DNA of 64,000 bases from Jatrophihabitans sp. (GTDB taxonomy: Bacteria; Actinomycetota; Actinomycetes; Mycobacteriales; Jatrophihabitantaceae): positions 18,759-82,758 of the forward strand of contig DASWNX010000028.1 of NCBI GenBank assembly GCA_036399055.1, read 5' to 3'. This document shows positions 25,716 through 33,777 of this stretch, one piece after another (positions within the stretch are counted from its first letter, which is position 1; each line of letters opens with the position of its first letter). Made by a program: the position numbers and the translations under genes. Below the pieces are notes generated by a model. That model did no database searches. It saw nothing but the letters and a program-made list of their open reading frames with translations, and was not told the origin of the DNA.

Positions 25716-28490
25716 TCACAGCTGCTGGGCGATCACCCCGCGCCGCAAAGCCGTGCAGGCCGCCGCCGCGGTGGCCCTGATGCCGGGGTCGATCGCGTCG
25801 GCGCGGGCGAGTTGCTCGAGCAGGTCGAGCAGCTGGCGCATCCAGCGCACGAAGTCACCGGCCGGCAGCCCGGCGCCGTCGTCGGACATCGAGCTCAGCA
25901 CCCGGTCCAGCGAGTCGCCCTTGGCCCACCGGTAGCTGGCCCAGACGAAGCCGAGGTCCGGCTCGCGTGAGAGCGGCAGGCGGTGGTCGGCCTCTCGCTC
26001 GCTGACCTCGGCCCACAGCCGCAGGGTGTCGCGCAGCGCGTCGCGCAGCGCTCCGCTGGGAAGCTTCGGCGCGGTCGGCTCGTCCCGGCGGGTCTCATAG
26101 ACCATCGCCGAGCACACCCCGGCCAGCTCGGCGGCGTTCAGACCCGACCAGGCGCCGGCGCGCAGGCACTCGGCGATCAGCAGGTCTGCCTCCGACCAGA
26201 TCCGTGACAGCTGCCGTCCGGCCGTGGTGATCGTGTCACCGGTCTCGGCGGCCGGGCTCATGTAGCCGAGCTCGGTGAGCAGCGCGCACACCTGGTCGAA
26301 GGTCCGCGACAGCGAATGGGTGCGTCCCTCGGCCCGCTGGCGCAGCGCGTCGTTCTCCCGCCGCAACCGGCTGGCCCGCTCGGCCCACCTGGCGTGTTCC
26401 TCGCGGTCGTCGCAGCCGTGGCAGGGATGGGCGCGCAGCGCCGCCCGCAGGTCCGACAGCTCTGGATCGTCGGCGGCGCCGTTGCGATCGCGCCGCCGGC
26501 GTGAACCCGGGTCGGCGATCCTGAGGTTGCGGATCGAGGAGGCCACGTCCTTGCGGGCGCTCGGGTTGCGGTGGTTGAAGTGCTTGGAGATCGGCAACCG
26601 CCCGAGCACCTCGACGACGTGCGGAAAGTCCAGCAGGGTGACCGGCCCGGCCCAGTGGTCCTCGGTGACGACCAGGGGCCGGGGGTCGGCCAGCGGCGAG
26701 GTCCCGGGGTCCACCACCACGGCCAGGCCCGCGCGGCGCCCGGACTGGATCCGGATCACGTCGCCGACCGACAGCGCCTCCAGCGACTGCACGACTGCGG
26801 CCCGGCGATCGGAGACTCCCTTGCGCGACAGCGACTTCTCCCGCTCCGAGAGCCGGGTGCGCAGCTCCTGGTACTCGGCGAAGTCACCCAGATGGCAGTG
26901 CATCCGGCTCTCGTAATCGGCCAGCGACTTCTCGTTGCGGGTGATCTGGCGGGTCAGGCCGACCACCGAGCGGTCGGCCTGGAACTGCGCGAACGATGAC
27001 TCCAGCAGCGCGCGAGCGGTGTCGCGGCCCACCTGGGACACCAGGTTGATCGCCATGTTGTAGGACGGGCGGAACGACGAGCGCAGCGGGTAGGTCCGCG
27101 TCGAGGCCAGGCCGGCCACTCGCGCCGGGTCGATCTCGGGGCTCCACTGCACCACCGCGTGACCCTCGATGTCGATGCCCCGGCGGCCTGCCCGGCCGGT
27201 CAGCTGGGTGTACTCCCCCGGGGTCAGGTCGGCGTGGGCCTCGCCGTTGAACTTGACCAGCCGCTCCAGCAGCACCGTCCGGGCCGGCATGTTGATGCCC
27301 AGCGCGAGGGTCTCGGTGGCGAAGACGACCCGCACCAGGCCCCGGACGAACAGCTCCTCCACGACCTCCTTGAACGCCGGGATCATGCCTGCGTGGTGGG
27401 CGGCGATGCCCCGCTGCAGCCCCTCGGAGAACTCCCAGTAGCCCAGCACGTCGAGGTCCTCGGCGGCCAGGTTGGCCGTCCGGTTCTCGACCAGCAGCCT
27501 GATGTCCTCGCGCTCGTCCTCGGTGGTCAGCCGCAGATTGGCCGCGACGCACTGCCGGACGGCGGCGTCGCACCCGGCTCGGCTGAAGATGAAGTCGATC
27601 GCGGGCAGCAGCCCTTCCCGGTCGAGCCGGCCGATCACGTCAGGGCGCGAGGGCGGACGCCATCGCGGTCCCGGCCCGCCGCGGTAGCGGTCCCTCCCGG
27701 GCCGGCTGCGGTTGGCCAGCTCCGTGGTGCGCATCCGCTCCCGGACGTAGCGCAGCAGCGTCGGGTCGACCCGGACGCCGTCGGGCCCGCCAGCGCCGGT
27801 GTGCGGTGACTCGGTGTCCTCGGCGAACAGGTCGAACATCCTGCTGCCCACCAGCATGTGCTGCCACAGCGGCACCGGCCGCTCCTCGTGGACGATCACC
27901 CGGGTGTCGCCGCGGACCTCGACCAGCCAGTCGCCGAACTCCTCGGCGTTGGAGACCGTCGCCGACAGCGACACCAGCCGCACCGAGTCGGGCAGGTGGA
28001 TGATCACCTCTTCCCAGACCGCGCCCCGGAACCGGTCGCCGAGGTAGTGAACCTCGTCCATCACCACGAAGCCCAGGCCCGCGAGGGCGTCGCTGCCGAC
28101 GTAGAGCATGTTGCGCAGCACTTCGGTGGTCATCACCACGATCGGCGCGTGCGGGTTGATCGCGTTGTCGCCGGTCAGCAGGCCGACGTTGGCAGGGCCG
28201 TAACGCTGCAGCAGGTCGTTGTACTTCTGGTTGGACAGCGCCTTGATCGGCGTGGTGTAGAAGCATTTCTGCCCGACGGCCAGGGCGAGGTAGATGGCGA
28301 ACTCGCCGACTACCGTCTTGCCCGCGCCGGTCGGCGCGCAGACCAGCACGCCGTAGCCCTCTTCCAGAGACTGGCACGCCTGAATCTGGAAGTCGTCGAG
28401 CTCGAAGCTGTAACCGGCCTGGAACTCGGTCACCCTCGGGAACTTCGTCCGCTGACGGGATTGGGCATACCGCTGCGCCGGCGAGGACAT
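25716..28490 (-). CDS. DEAD/DEAH RNA helicase, Ski2/Mtr4-like
   Basis: A 924-residue superfamily 2 helicase. Motif I is APTGAGKT, motif II is MDEVHYLGD (DEVH type), motif III is SLSATVSN, and motif VI is QLTGRAGRRGID. The long C-terminal part after residue 500 matches the Dob1/Mtr4-type arch and helical domains. Family members unwind structured RNA for decay or rRNA processing. Actinomycetes commonly keep this gene just downstream of tatC, as here but with an MFS gene and an SOS site in between. ATG 28490 gives the usual start (MSSPAQRYAQSR); a GTG at 28520 in the same frame is an alternative. Confidence 0.9.
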   Translation of the reverse strand: MSSPAQRYAQSRQRTKFPRVTEFQAGYSFELDDFQIQACQSLEEGYGVLVCAPTGAGKTVVGEFAIYLALAVGQKCFYTTPIKALSNQKYNDLLQRYGPANVGLLTGDNAINPHAPIVVMTTEVLRNMLYVGSDALAGLGFVVMDEVHYLGDRFRGAVWEEVIIHLPDSVRLVSLSATVSNAEEFGDWLVEVRGDTRVIVHEERPVPLWQHMLVGSRMFDLFAEDTESPHTGAGGPDGVRVDPTLLRYVRERMRTTELANRSRPGRDRYRGGPGPRWRPPSRPDVIGRLDREGLLPAIDFIFSRAGCDAAVRQCVAANLRLTTEDEREDIRLLVENRTANLAAEDLDVLGYWEFSEGLQRGIAAHHAGMIPAFKEVVEELFVRGLVRVVFATETLALGINMPARTVLLERLVKFNGEAHADLTPGEYTQLTGRAGRRGIDIEGHAVVQWSPEIDPARVAGLASTRTYPLRSSFRPSYNMAINLVSQVGRDTARALLESSFAQFQADRSVVGLTRQITRNEKSLADYESRMHCHLGDFAEYQELRTRLSEREKSLSRKGVSDRRAAVVQSLEALSVGDVIRIQSGRRAGLAVVVDPGTSPLADPRPLVVTEDHWAGPVTLLDFPHVVEVLGRLPISKHFNHRNPSARKDVASSIRNLRIADPGSRRRRDRNGAADDPELSDLRAALRAHPCHGCDDREEHARWAERASRLRRENDALRQRAEGRTHSLSRTFDQVCALLTELGYMSPAAETGDTITTAGRQLSRIWSEADLLIAECLRAGAWSGLNAAELAGVCSAMVYETRRDEPTAPKLPSGALRDALRDTLRLWAEVSEREADHRLPLSREPDLGFVWASYRWAKGDSLDRVLSSMSDDGAGLPAGDFVRWMRQLLDLLEQLARADAIDPGIRATAAAACTALRRGVIAQQL

Positions 28491-28630
28491 GGCTCCAGCG
28501 TACTTGCGCCTCACGAGCACCTGGCCGTTCTCACGTTCTCAGCCGTTCTGCCGTGCCCAGCGGCGCGCCCAGCGGTCCCCCGCCGTTCCCAGCGGGCCCC
28601 CGTCGTCCTCAGGGTTCTCAGCCGTCCTCG

Positions 28631-28680
28631 GCCGGACCGCGACGCGCCGGACCGCGACGAGCCGGACCGCGACGAGCCGG
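28631..28680. repeat. 15-bp tandem repeat, three copies
   Basis: The unit GCCGGACCGCGACGA occurs at 28646-28660 and 28661-28675, with a one-base variant at 28631-28645 and a partial fourth copy. It lies just after the stop of the small SOS-linked ORF and before the helicase gene. The rest of 28500-28700 shows nothing else recognisable. Confidence 0.75.
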
Positions 28681-28700
28681 ACCGGGTCAGCCGGAGCGGG

Positions 28701-28877
28701 TCAGCCGACCAGATCAGCGGCCTCCTCGCACTGCAGCAGGATCGTGGCGGCGTCGGCGCTGGGCAGCAGCACCGTCAGGGTGAACCTGCCCGGCTCGCTC
28801 GGGCTGAGCGTGGCGCATCGGTCAGACCTCGCCCGCCGCCGACGGGCCGCGGTCAGGCTCGGCGCGAGTTCGGTCAT
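28701..28877 (-). CDS. Small SOS-linked protein, unknown (58 aa)
   Basis: A 58-residue ORF beginning MTELAPSLTAARRRRARSDR and ending LLQCEEAADLVG. The N-terminal third is basic (six Arg between residues 12 and 20); the C-terminal part (residues 31-58) is hydrophobic then acidic and contains Cys21 and Cys50. I recognise no family. Support is contextual: it is the third and longest ORF in a chain of ATGA-overlapped ORFs (7, 14 and 58 codons) that starts right after a LexA box with a good -10 hexamer. The ribosome site before ATG 28877 is weak, so coupling from the 14-codon ORF would be needed. No in-frame start lies upstream before a stop. It may be an SOS-induced small protein, or the signal could belong to a transcript reading on into the helicase. 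Confidence 0.4.
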   Translation of the reverse strand: MTELAPSLTAARRRRARSDRCATLSPSEPGRFTLTVLLPSADAATILLQCEEAADLVG

Positions 28878-28918
28878 CGGGTGCTGCCGGTCGGGAGCGG
28901 GTTCACGGGGGTCTTCAT
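28874..28918 (-). CDS. 14-codon leader ORF, coupled
   Basis: The ORF reads MKTPVNPLPTGSTR. Its ATG is preceded by GTGAAGGT and its stop overlaps the ATG of the 58-residue ORF (ATGA). Its own start overlaps the stop of a 7-codon ORF (28915-28938, MTPTVKV). It probably serves translational coupling or has no peptide function. Confidence 0.25.
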   Translation of the reverse strand: MKTPVNPLPTGSTR

Positions 28919-28945
28919 ACCTTCACTGTCGGCGTCATGGGCCAG

Positions 28946-28951
28946 ATCCTA
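28946..28951 (-). promoter_or_regulatory. -10 hexamer of SOS promoter
   Basis: On the minus strand the hexamer TAGGAT lies just downstream of the LexA box. It is followed by seven bases and then ATG (28938), so transcription would begin at or next to that ATG, a leaderless start of the kind common in actinomycetes. Confidence 0.5.
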
Positions 28952-28952
28952 A

Positions 28953-28968
28953 TCGAACATATGTTCGA
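28953..28968. promoter_or_regulatory. LexA (SOS) box
   Basis: TCGAACATATGTTCGA is a perfect 16-bp palindrome containing the GAACN4GTTC core, an exact match to the mycobacterial/Bacillus-type SOS box. It lies between the 3' end of an MFS gene and a set of small minus-strand ORFs, next to a minus-strand -10 hexamer; LexA bound here would block that promoter. Confidence 0.85.
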
Positions 28969-28993
28969 CTGATGCCCCGACCCGCCGAAACCC

Positions 28994-30505
28994 TCAGGCT
29001 GCGGCCCGCGCGCTGCCCTCCCCCGTGAGATCGGCGCCGGTGGCGCGGTCGCGCAGCAGCGCGTCGCCGACCGCCAGCGCCAGGGCGAGCACCAGGAACA
29101 CCACCGCGACGAGCAGCCCGTGTTGCAGGGCCCGGCCGTAGTCTCCCCGGCTGGCCGACAGCTGGGCGTAGAACACCGAACCCACCGCGGCGATGCCGAT
29201 CGCGGCCCCGATCCGCTGACCGACCTGGATCAGGCCGCCGGCCGTGCCACCCTGCTCGACCGGCACCTCTGACAGCGTCAGCGTCTGGTTCGGCGAGATG
29301 ACCAGGCCCGAACCGACGCCACCCACCAGCAGCGGGGCGATCAGGGCCCAGCCGGTGAGGTCGGCGGGCACTTCACGGACCACCAGGATCACTCCGAGAT
29401 AGCCGGCCACCACCAACCCCAGCCCGGTCACCACCAGCCCCCGGCCGAACCGGTGCACCACCCGCCCGGCCAGCCCAGCGGCCAACCCCGAGCCGACGGC
29501 AAAGGGCAGCGTGACCAGGCCGGCCAGCAGCGCCGAGTAGCCCAGGCCGAACTGCAACAGCAGGGTCAGGACGAAGAACAGCGAGGTGAAGCCGGCGAAG
29601 TAGATGGTGATCATCGAGCTGCCGAAGGAGAAGGACCGCCGGCGAAACAGCGTCAGGTCGACCAGGGCGTCGCCGCCCCGGTTGCGATACCGCACCTCCC
29701 AGGCCAGGAAGCTGGCCAGCAGCAGCGCCGCCAGGGGCACCAGCAGCCATTTGGCGTTGCCCTTCCACTGCTGCTCCTGCACGAAGGGAAGCAGCAGCAC
29801 CACCACGCCGAGGCCTAACAGCAGCACCCCGACCGGGTCGAGGTCATTCCGCCGGGCTCGCTGCTCGGCCGATGCCTGCGGCAGCAGCCGCATCGCGAAC
29901 GGCACGGCGAGCAGGCCGATCGGCAGGTTCACGAAGAACACGTACCGCCAGCCGTGGGTCTCACCGAAGACCTCGATCAGCAGGCCGCCGATCAGCGGCC
30001 CCAGCGCCGTCGAGATGCCGACCATGGCGCCGAACAGGCCGAATGCCTTGGCTCGCTCCCGGCCGCGGAACAGTTGCTGGATGAGCGCGCTGATCTGCGG
30101 CGTCAGCAACCCCGCGGCCAGCCCCTGGCTCAGCCGGGCGATCACCAGCCAGGTCGGGTTCGGCGCCACCCCGCAGAGCAGGCTGGCGAACGTGAACGCC
30201 AGCATGCCGAAGATGAACAGCCTGCGCCGGCCGCGGGCGTCACCCAGTCGGCCGGCCGGCACCAGCAACAGCCCGAAGGTCAGCGAGTACCCCGAGAGCA
30301 CCCACTGGATGGCCTCGCCGGAGGCGTGCAGGCCCACGTCGATCGAGTGCAGCGCGACGTTGACGATCGAGACGTCCAACAGCACCATGGACCCGCCGAC
30401 CAGGCAGACTGCCAGCGCCTTCCAGCGGTTGGGGTCGGGCACGAAACCGTCCTCGACTCTGGCCGGTGAGCTGTCGGGGACCTGCGGCGCGGGAGAAGCT
30501 GACAC
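28994..30505 (-). CDS. MFS drug exporter, DHA2 (EmrB/QacA) type
   Basis: A 503-residue transporter with about 14 hydrophobic segments. The DHA2 mark in the first helix is GGSMVLLDVSIVNVALHSI, the loop 2-3 motif is GRLGDARGRRRLF, and motif C GISTALGPLIGGLLIE (antiporter motif) is clear. It exports drugs or metabolites using the proton gradient. There is no TetR or MarR regulator beside it. It lies between tatC and the helicase gene, an unusual insertion in this otherwise conserved actinobacterial order. The C-terminal tail is short and cytosolic. Confidence 0.9.
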   Translation of the reverse strand: MSASPAPQVPDSSPARVEDGFVPDPNRWKALAVCLVGGSMVLLDVSIVNVALHSIDVGLHASGEAIQWVLSGYSLTFGLLLVPAGRLGDARGRRRLFIFGMLAFTFASLLCGVAPNPTWLVIARLSQGLAAGLLTPQISALIQQLFRGRERAKAFGLFGAMVGISTALGPLIGGLLIEVFGETHGWRYVFFVNLPIGLLAVPFAMRLLPQASAEQRARRNDLDPVGVLLLGLGVVVLLLPFVQEQQWKGNAKWLLVPLAALLLASFLAWEVRYRNRGGDALVDLTLFRRRSFSFGSSMITIYFAGFTSLFFVLTLLLQFGLGYSALLAGLVTLPFAVGSGLAAGLAGRVVHRFGRGLVVTGLGLVVAGYLGVILVVREVPADLTGWALIAPLLVGGVGSGLVISPNQTLTLSEVPVEQGGTAGGLIQVGQRIGAAIGIAAVGSVFYAQLSASRGDYGRALQHGLLVAVVFLVLALALAVGDALLRDRATGADLTGEGSARAAA

Positions 30506-31720: not shown

Positions 31721-32665
31721 TTACTGTTCGCGGTAGGCGGCCAGCGCCTGTGTGGCCGAGGCCTCGACGTCACGGGCCAACCAGTCCGGGGCCAGCACGG
31801 TGACCGCGCCGCCCGAGCGCCGGGCCAGCGCCGCCACCCAGGCCGGATTGGCCACCCGCAGCGTCACCCGCAAGGCCGCGCCCACCTGCTGCACCGTCTC
31901 GCACGGGTAGTAGTCACTGACCCATTCCCAACCCGGGCCCAGCCGCAGCTCGACCAGCAGATGCTCCGGCGCGGGCCGGTAGACCCCGGCGCTGACGTCG
32001 GTCAGGGTCACAGTGGCCGGCACGTCGGCCGGCTCGTCGAGCAGCGTCGCGTCCTCGATCCGGTCCACCCGGAAGATCCGCATGCCCTCGGCCCGGCGGC
32101 ACCACGCCTCCAGGTACCCGATCTCCTCGGCGACGAAGACCCGGACCGGGTCGATGACCCGGCGGGTCGTCTCGTCGCGGTTGGCGGAGTAGTAGTCCAT
32201 TTCGATGGCGCGCTTCTGCTCGACCGCCTGCCGGGCCAGGTTGAGCCAGCGATCACGCCCGGCCAGTCGGATGTCCACCGCGTCGGCGTCCAGGTGCTGG
32301 CCGGCCGCTGCCTCGATCTTGGTCAGGGCTCGCTCGGCCGCGCCGCCCTGGGTAGCGCCCGGGACGTCGGTCAGGGCGCGCAGGGCGACCGCCAGCGTCA
32401 TCGCCTCGGTCGCGGTCAGCTTCAACGGCCTGCTCAGGCCGCCGTCGTAGGTGACCGACACCGTGTCCCCGTCGAACATCAGGTCGATCAGGTCCTCGGG
32501 CCCGGAGCTGCGTCCGCACAGCCACAGCATCTCCAGCTCCTTGCGCAGCTGCTCCTCACCGATCCCGAACGTGCGCGCGGTCTCGCTGATCGAGGCCACT
32601 CCCTGCGACAGGATGTAAGGCACCAGGGCCAGCAACCGGGACACCTTGTCGCTGGTGTCGGTCAC
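31721..32665 (-). CDS. pafC: PafC, WYL-domain transcriptional regulator
   Basis: A 314-residue protein with an N-terminal winged helix (LVPYILSQGVASISETARTFGI) and a central WYL domain (YYSANRDETTRRVIDPVRVFV, then GYLEAWCRRAEGMRIFRVDRI). With PafB it forms the activator of the LexA-independent DNA-damage response, known from mycobacteria. The ligand-sensing residues of the WYL domain are in place. It overlaps pafB by ATGA and follows in the same operon as pafA. Confidence 0.93.
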   Translation of the reverse strand: MTDTSDKVSRLLALVPYILSQGVASISETARTFGIGEEQLRKELEMLWLCGRSSGPEDLIDLMFDGDTVSVTYDGGLSRPLKLTATEAMTLAVALRALTDVPGATQGGAAERALTKIEAAAGQHLDADAVDIRLAGRDRWLNLARQAVEQKRAIEMDYYSANRDETTRRVIDPVRVFVAEEIGYLEAWCRRAEGMRIFRVDRIEDATLLDEPADVPATVTLTDVSAGVYRPAPEHLLVELRLGPGWEWVSDYYPCETVQQVGAALRVTLRVANPAWVAALARRSGGAVTVLAPDWLARDVEASATQALAAYREQ

Positions 32666-33777
32666 CGGCCACCGCCGGTCAACGCCGTGCCTCCGGCCAC
32701 CGCCGCAGGCTCGGCGCTCTCGGCACCCGGTCGGCCGCCGGTGACGCCGCTGAGCAACCCGATCACCGCGGTCACCAGCTCCGGCGGCTCGAGCGCGACG
32801 GCTTCGGCCCCGGCGCCGGCCACCAGCCCGGCAAGCCGGTCGAGGTCGCGGTAGTCCAGGGTCAGCACATCTCCCTCGGCGGTGCTGCGCACCTGCCGCG
32901 CCTGGCGCCGCAGCTGGCCGCCGCGGCCCGGAGCGACCCGCACACTGGCCAGCTGGTCGGGTTGGTGGTTGGCGCCCCGGACCAGCTCGAGCATGTCCAG
33001 GTCCTCAGGACGGCTGGTCTCGGCGGCGGTGGCCAGTGTCCTGACCTCGCCGACGATCCGGTCCAGCCGGAAGCTGCGCACATCGCCACGGCCTCGGTCA
33101 TAGCCGACCACGTACCACCGGCCACGCCAGGACAGCACTCCCCACGGCTCGAGAACCCGTTTCTGCGGCGCGGGGGCCGACTGCTTGCGGTGGGCGAACT
33201 GCACCACCCGGCGCTCGGACACCGCCGCGACCAGGCCCGGCAGCGCCGGCTCGTTGCCCGGCAGCGGGGGCAACGCGTCGGCGCCGGGCGGCTCCTCGAT
33301 CTCGATTCCGGCGGCGCGCAGCTTGATCAGCGCGGTCCGGGCCTCGGTGGCCAGCGACGCGGTGCTCCAGAGCCGGCCGGCCAGTCCCACCGCGGCCGCC
33401 TCGTCGGCGGTGAACTCGATCGGCGGCAGCTCGAACTGGTGCCGGGCGATCCGGTAGCCGTCCTCGGTGTCGAAGACGGAGTTGCGCCCGGTCTCCAGCG
33501 GGATCCCGAGCTCGCGCAGCTCGGCCTTGTCGCGCTCGAAGCTCCGCTTGAAAGCCTCGTCGGGATTGGTGGAGTCCTCTGACACCTCATAGCCCTCGAC
33601 GGTGTCGCGGATGCGGTCAGCGGTGATGTACTGCCGGGTCGAGAGCAGGCACAGCACCAGAGACACCAGTCGTTGCTGTCGACGCGCCGCCATGTCCGAC
33701 AACGGTAGGCGACGCCGACGCCCGCGCGGCGCGCCACCCCGGGCGGGCTGCGTGGTTCGTCGGGCCCCGGCGTTCAC
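32662..33777 (-). CDS. pafB: PafB, WYL-domain transcriptional regulator
   Basis: A 371-residue partner of PafC with a winged-helix start ([25 protein letters not shown]) and a WYL core ([36 protein letters not shown]). The GTG start at 33777 overlaps the pafA stop (ATGTGA), which favours it. It adds a 28-residue Arg-rich leader, and ATG 33693 would give the usual family N-terminus. PafBC activates repair genes on DNA damage. The link of this regulator with Pup ligase (PafA) in one operon is conserved across proteasome-bearing actinomycetes. Confidence 0.93.

Follow-up and report, generated by a model that had tools for sequence, protein, structure and literature searches.

What is made from a LexA (SOS) box that is followed by a chain of tiny, overlapping open reading frames (ORFs), the longest of only 58 codons? 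This question is raised by a locus on the minus strand of the window analysed here, a stretch of 64,000 nucleotides from a Jatrophihabitans genome. Our best reading is an SOS-controlled, shortened DUF222 gene: a domesticated microprotein, or else a relic that is fading. More precisely, the locus probably descends, in shortened form, from a 13E12-type DUF222 gene, and is probably repressed by LexA and leaderless.

The LexA box and the chain of small ORFs

The box, TCGAACATATGTTCGA, is a perfect palindrome of 16 nucleotides, located by pattern match at 28953–28968. A putative −10 hexamer, TAGGAT (28951–28946), lies 2 nt past the box core, and 7 nt past the hexamer there is an ATG at 28938, all on the minus strand. 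This ATG, a putative leaderless start, opens a leader ORF of 7 codons (28915–28938, minus strand). A second leader ORF of 14 codons (28874–28918, minus strand) and the 58-codon ORF (28701–28877, minus strand), hereafter the mini-ORF, complete the chain, with the second leader ORF overlapping the ORF on either side by 4 nt (ATGA). The first-pass annotation of this DNA had described the box, the hexamer, the ATG and the three ORFs joined by ATGA overlaps, and each is found where it had placed it. It had also named the box as the mycobacterial LexA consensus, in agreement with the SOS box TCGAAC-N4-GTTCGA given in the available portion of PMC4181829. The locus thus carries at its putative promoter the consensus box that characterizes the LexA regulon. 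The 16-mer is found at a single site in the window at 0 mismatches, and at two sites when up to 3 mismatches are allowed, compared with a mean of 0.06 in 100 shuffles. A LexA-like site with 3 mismatches at 32472–32487, within pafC, probably occurs there by chance.

The LexA reading of the box is well supported, since the same core precedes recA (PF00154), lexA (PF01726, PF00717), ruvC (PF02075) and an imuB-like cluster with an IMS-family polymerase (PF00817) in the same genome. Across this 4.53 Mb genome, the core CGAACNNNNGTTCG occurs at 21 sites, against one for the reversed pattern; by reading, several of the 21 are inside long ORFs, hence not all are at promoters. A second box identical over all 16 nucleotides is present at G000:C2:172893 (L039:1500–1515); reading of its surroundings revealed no SOS gene next to it. 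Another LexA core (L053:1440–1455) stands immediately ahead of a frame that encodes release-factor domains (PCRF, RF-1). The prediction of an SOS-controlled leaderless transcript, made in the first-pass annotation, is supported by the anatomy of the locus together with the LexA-type sites at the known SOS genes of the genome. From the box and the known biology of LexA, we infer repression by LexA, induction by DNA damage and a leaderless mRNA.

Scans of the locus for promoters and terminators returned nothing, and no terminator-like site is present in 28450–29100. It is very improbable that the transcript serves as a regulatory leader RNA or a leader-peptide attenuator with incidental peptides: a chain of tiny ORFs with stop-start overlaps would suit such a role, but Rfam gave no match at gathering score in the locus, a terminator-like element is missing, and the 58-codon ORF is better conserved than the leader sequence ahead of it.

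The immediate neighbours, both on the minus strand, are a gene for an MFS transporter (28994–30505), which ends 25 nt ahead of the box, and a co-directional gene for a helY-type DEAD-box/DSHCT helicase (25716–28490). The earlier statement that no known SOS gene is adjacent is true of these two. The statement that pafBC is near is also correct (pafC at 31721–32665, pafB at 32662–33777). A position of pafBC in this neighbourhood is ordinary for actinomycetes, and its proximity is incidental. Tandem repeats of 15 nt, G+C-rich and in about five copies, span the last part of the mini-ORF and continue into the gap before helY (28631–28718).

Resemblance of the 58-residue product to a DUF222 segment

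The 58-residue product had been described as belonging to an unknown family; we find instead that it resembles a segment of DUF222 proteins. A tblastn search with the 58-mer, blind to DUF222 and covering 61 whole genomes, returned the ORF itself and its homologues in the two sister species, at 69% and 54% identity, as well as five matches in four genomes outside the three that hold the mini-ORF. Three of these five matched proteins are DUF222 by Pfam (L004, L006 and L007), and the other two, L005 and L008, both from G014, had no Pfam match even at E ≤ 10. A profile built from the three mini proteins was then run on 298 genomes of the order. Among the best 22 candidates per genome, it gave 52 rows, comprising the three minis, 48 segments in open frames of 255–1111 codons, and one broken frame of 114 codons with a stop. 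A further mini may have been missed because just 22 candidates per genome were scored. Pfam recognised DUF222 in 28 of 31 distinct proteins taken from the profile-search rows with a fetched locus, a few of them with HNH too. The three misses were L005, L008 and L116, the last of which has HNH_5.

About 54 of the 58 residues align without a gap to one DUF222 segment, at profile positions of about 192–248. A profile-profile comparison of the mini with this segment gave 97.4% (E = 1.5e-11), with the rows in it chosen by the match. As a control, 25 DUF222 proteins of the genus were collected via PF02720, independently of the match; a profile built from them reached the mini only at E = 0.19 and in third rank, below two unrelated frames. 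The Pfam DUF222 model itself matched none of the three minis at E ≤ 10, so that the model does not count them as members, and the mini had no Pfam hit of any kind at E ≤ 0.001. As both the control profile and the Pfam model miss the mini, the relation is to a DUF222 subgroup. The full DUF222 architecture with a C-terminal HNH part is absent: the mini has just the module corresponding to residues 199–247 of a DUF222 model. The 58-residue protein looks like one helix-hairpin-helix module of a DUF222 (13E12-type, HNH) subgroup.

Collections of plasmids and phages contained no tblastn match to the mini at E ≤ 0.01. A search of genome contigs with the mini profile found two loci, one of which is the contig of the sister genome G008 itself (JAVEEO010000345.1, MAG Pseudonocardiales bacterium BP_201). 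The other, from a MAG labelled Bacillota (L097), was dropped, as a longer ORF runs on that strand and the match is in a different frame from it. The genome of the window has eight DUF222 matches, two of them cut at contig ends.

AlphaFold2 predicts for the mini a helix (residues 6–18), two β-strands (21–26 and 32–37) and a second helix (40–57), with a mean pLDDT of 82.3 and a pTM of 0.50. The same order of elements appears at residues 199–247 in the model of a DUF222 protein from the same genome (L063; pLDDT 81.2, pTM 0.66). Foldseek searches of the PDB with the mini and with this DUF222 model returned nothing at E ≤ 0.001. The DUF222 model had weak matches to ParB/Noc-like folds (probability up to 0.85, TM 0.17, E about 0.3), at most a lead on DNA binding. 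A search of PDB sequences with one DUF222 protein gave a single irrelevant weak match (E = 0.063).

The first-pass annotation had suggested a damage-response regulator or division inhibitor, and we found no support for this. Small SOS proteins such as SulA, YneA, SidA, DivS and TisB are known from other bacteria, and the mini is like them, by description, in being a small product behind a LexA box; its apparent origin is different. We give very little credence to the idea that the mini is an SOS-induced regulator or division inhibitor with no relation to DUF222. The failure of Pfam and of the profiles of other DUF222 proteins to detect the mini would fit such a protein, but the resemblance to the DUF222 segment extends over nearly the whole length of the mini, no membrane stretch is seen by reading, and the structure searches offered no match at the threshold used.

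Conservation of the locus and selection on the mini protein

The mini-gene is located between the MFS gene and helY in three of nine genus genomes: that of the window (G000) and two others (G002 and G008). Conservation of the 58-codon frame had been proposed as a check on the locus; of the eight other genus genomes, two keep the frame, while searches of the remaining six (two of them <90% complete), where other genes precede helY, did not find it. In all three species that have the mini-gene, the MFS gene is its upstream neighbour. The box core is exact in G000 and G002, and has two mismatches in G008. The hexamers are TAGGAT, TAAGGT and TAGACT, each 2 nt past the core, with an ATG 7, 7 and 6 nt further on, respectively. 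The presence of a box, a −10-like hexamer and an ATG in the two sister species also supports the predicted SOS-controlled leaderless transcript. The leader ORFs are of 7 (then 14), 16 and 15 codons, and in each sister just one leader ORF is present, sharing 4 nt (GTGA) with the start of the mini. Because these overlaps are conserved, we infer that the leader is translated and that translation restarts on the mini by coupling. The stretch that begins 2 nt ahead of the box core and runs up to the first aligned codon spans 104, 90 and 86 nt. The mini itself has 58 codons in each species, of which 54 align without a gap.

Could the box instead serve helY, with SOS induction of the helicase and the tiny ORFs a mere leader? 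The two are on the same strand with no terminator-like site in the interval scanned, and the distance from the mini stop codon to helY, 213 nt in the window, is only 73 and 53 nt in the sisters. However, helY has a start of its own (TACGCT-N6-ATG in the window), and a TA[CG]NNT-N6-ATG start is present in 9/9 genus genomes, including six without the box. When 30 helY upstream stretches were scanned, exact cores were found only in G000 and G002, with six others showing a look-alike with one mismatch or weaker. Regulation of helY by the box is therefore improbable, and the helicase gene is probably independent of the mini-gene.

Is the mini protein under selection? The three pairwise NG86 dN/dS values for the mini are 0.23/0.49, 0.38/0.51 and 0.29/0.48 (ratios of 0.48–0.75). 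Over the 495 codons of the MFS gene, the corresponding values are 0.085/0.28, 0.093/0.39 and 0.096/0.33; helY, compared over its first 222 codons, has 0.018/0.15, 0.022/0.33 and 0.029/0.30. The dN of the mini (0.23–0.38) is thus close to the dS of its MFS neighbour (0.28–0.39) and above the dN of helY (0.018–0.029). In a simple neutral simulation, 2.1% of 20,000 runs came up to the protein similarity that the three minis show, and 1.0% did so when the frame was also to be free of stops. Twelve family-consensus residues are retained in all three minis. Selection on the mini protein is supported only moderately by these comparisons, because it evolves fast and other DUF222 profiles miss it, which also limits the homology to a subgroup.

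The same data bear on a pure relic, in which the common ancestor of these species lost most of a DUF222 gene, and chance alone has preserved the box and the 58-codon frame, with a product that has no role. We consider this close to an even prospect, a probability that overlaps with that of the shortened-gene explanation, as the relic is a sub-case of it. A relic would account for the dN/dS ratios, with the mini changing faster than its neighbours, for the decayed box in G008, and for the loss from all three minis of D5, V22, D29 and M31, which are conserved in ≥70% of DUF222 segments. Against it, the 54 aligned codons are free of gaps and stops in three species despite ~68 changes inferred on the three branches, while the flanks vary in length; the length of the mini and the 4-nt overlap are the same in all three; and A22, S40, L48 and C50 are fixed in the minis, although each is present in only 0–2 of 29 DUF222 segments.

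LexA-type boxes ahead of related DUF222 genes

Are related longer genes also preceded by LexA boxes? After repeats of the same genes (L099, L101, L103, L109 and L113) were excluded, an exact LexA core was found 400–1200 nt upstream of the matching segment in 8 of 31 mini-matching genes and was absent there in 23, compared with 0/31 in the equal downstream stretch. Allowing one mismatch, the core was upstream in 12/31 and downstream in 3/31. The 25 other DUF222 proteins had exact cores in 0/25 upstream and 0/25 downstream stretches, and in 2/25 of each with up to one mismatch. The difference between 8/31 and 0/25 has a Fisher value of 0.006 in a test conceived after the boxes had been seen. The eight boxed genes are from six genomes, with two each in G014 and G033, and six of the eight are Pfam-confirmed DUF222.

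An exact promoter match is present in the same genus. Searched at 0 mismatches in 200 genomes, the string CGAACNNNNGTTCGATTAGGAT (CGAACN4GTTCGATTAGGAT) occurs in two places, the mini locus and upstream of a DUF222 gene in G007 (L032); its reversed control had no match in 200 rows. The G007 gene has exactly the same GTTCGATTAGGAT string, which continues with GGGTTTATG, and an ATG follows 6 nt further on. Its DUF222 domain is nearly whole (profile positions 2–305 of 306), in a frame cut by the contig end, and its protein match to the mini is weak (13.1 bits).

In the available portion of PMC4181829, some of the ten 13E12-family HNH genes of M. tuberculosis are under LexA. The accessible part of PMC8151990 lists five putative HNH endonucleases among RecA-dependent genes, with 13E12 not named there, while that of PMC10589994 writes REP13E12/HNH endonuclease/DUF222 as a single category. 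The titles and abstract openings listed in the literature searches make no mention of a standalone 58-codon ORF of such a kind. The mini is therefore like the 13E12/REP13E12-type DUF222-HNH proteins (PF02720) in its gap-free alignment to one segment, in the LexA core shared with a fraction of related genes, and in the box-plus-TAGGAT string identical to that of a genus relative. It is unlike them in having 58 residues, as against frames of roughly 255–1111 codons, in lacking the helical head and the C-terminal half, in the four lost family residues, and in escaping the Pfam model.

How might such a shortened gene work? Without damage, LexA on the box beside the −10 hexamer would block transcription. 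After damage, RecA-driven cleavage of LexA would release a leaderless mRNA starting at or near the first ATG. The short leader ORF or ORFs would be translated; after terminating there, ribosomes would resume at the overlapping start codon, within ATGA in the window and GTGA in the sisters. The product would be a 58-residue helix–β-hairpin–helix module, which in the DUF222 model follows an N-terminal helical part; the mini would lack both that part and the C-terminal (HNH) half. If the mini protein acts, pairing or competing with full-length DUF222 proteins is the likeliest way; otherwise, the mini is a relic that retains its promoter. A more specific proposal, which we regard as rather unlikely, is that the mini is a domesticated SOS microprotein cut from a DUF222-HNH gene with the LexA promoter kept, and that, made after DNA damage, it docks on full-length DUF222 nucleases or their partners via the common helix-hairpin-helix module, damping or steering their activity.

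The DUF222/13E12 proteins are a poorly understood nuclease family, repeated in many actinomycete genomes and in some cases SOS-controlled. An isolated module of 58 residues with a predicted fold and an SOS-type promoter may help in a small way to show where in DUF222 an activity resides, and it suggests a route by which a gene of a repeat family could shrink into a regulated microprotein.

Four of the boxed DUF222 genes (L006, L007, L104 and L121) have an ATG within the box itself (CGAACAC-ATG-TTCGA). A long frame whose product starts with MFE or MFD begins at this ATG, with TAGTAT, CATAAT or TAGAAT 7 nt before it. In these four genes the operator itself may therefore contain the leaderless start codon.
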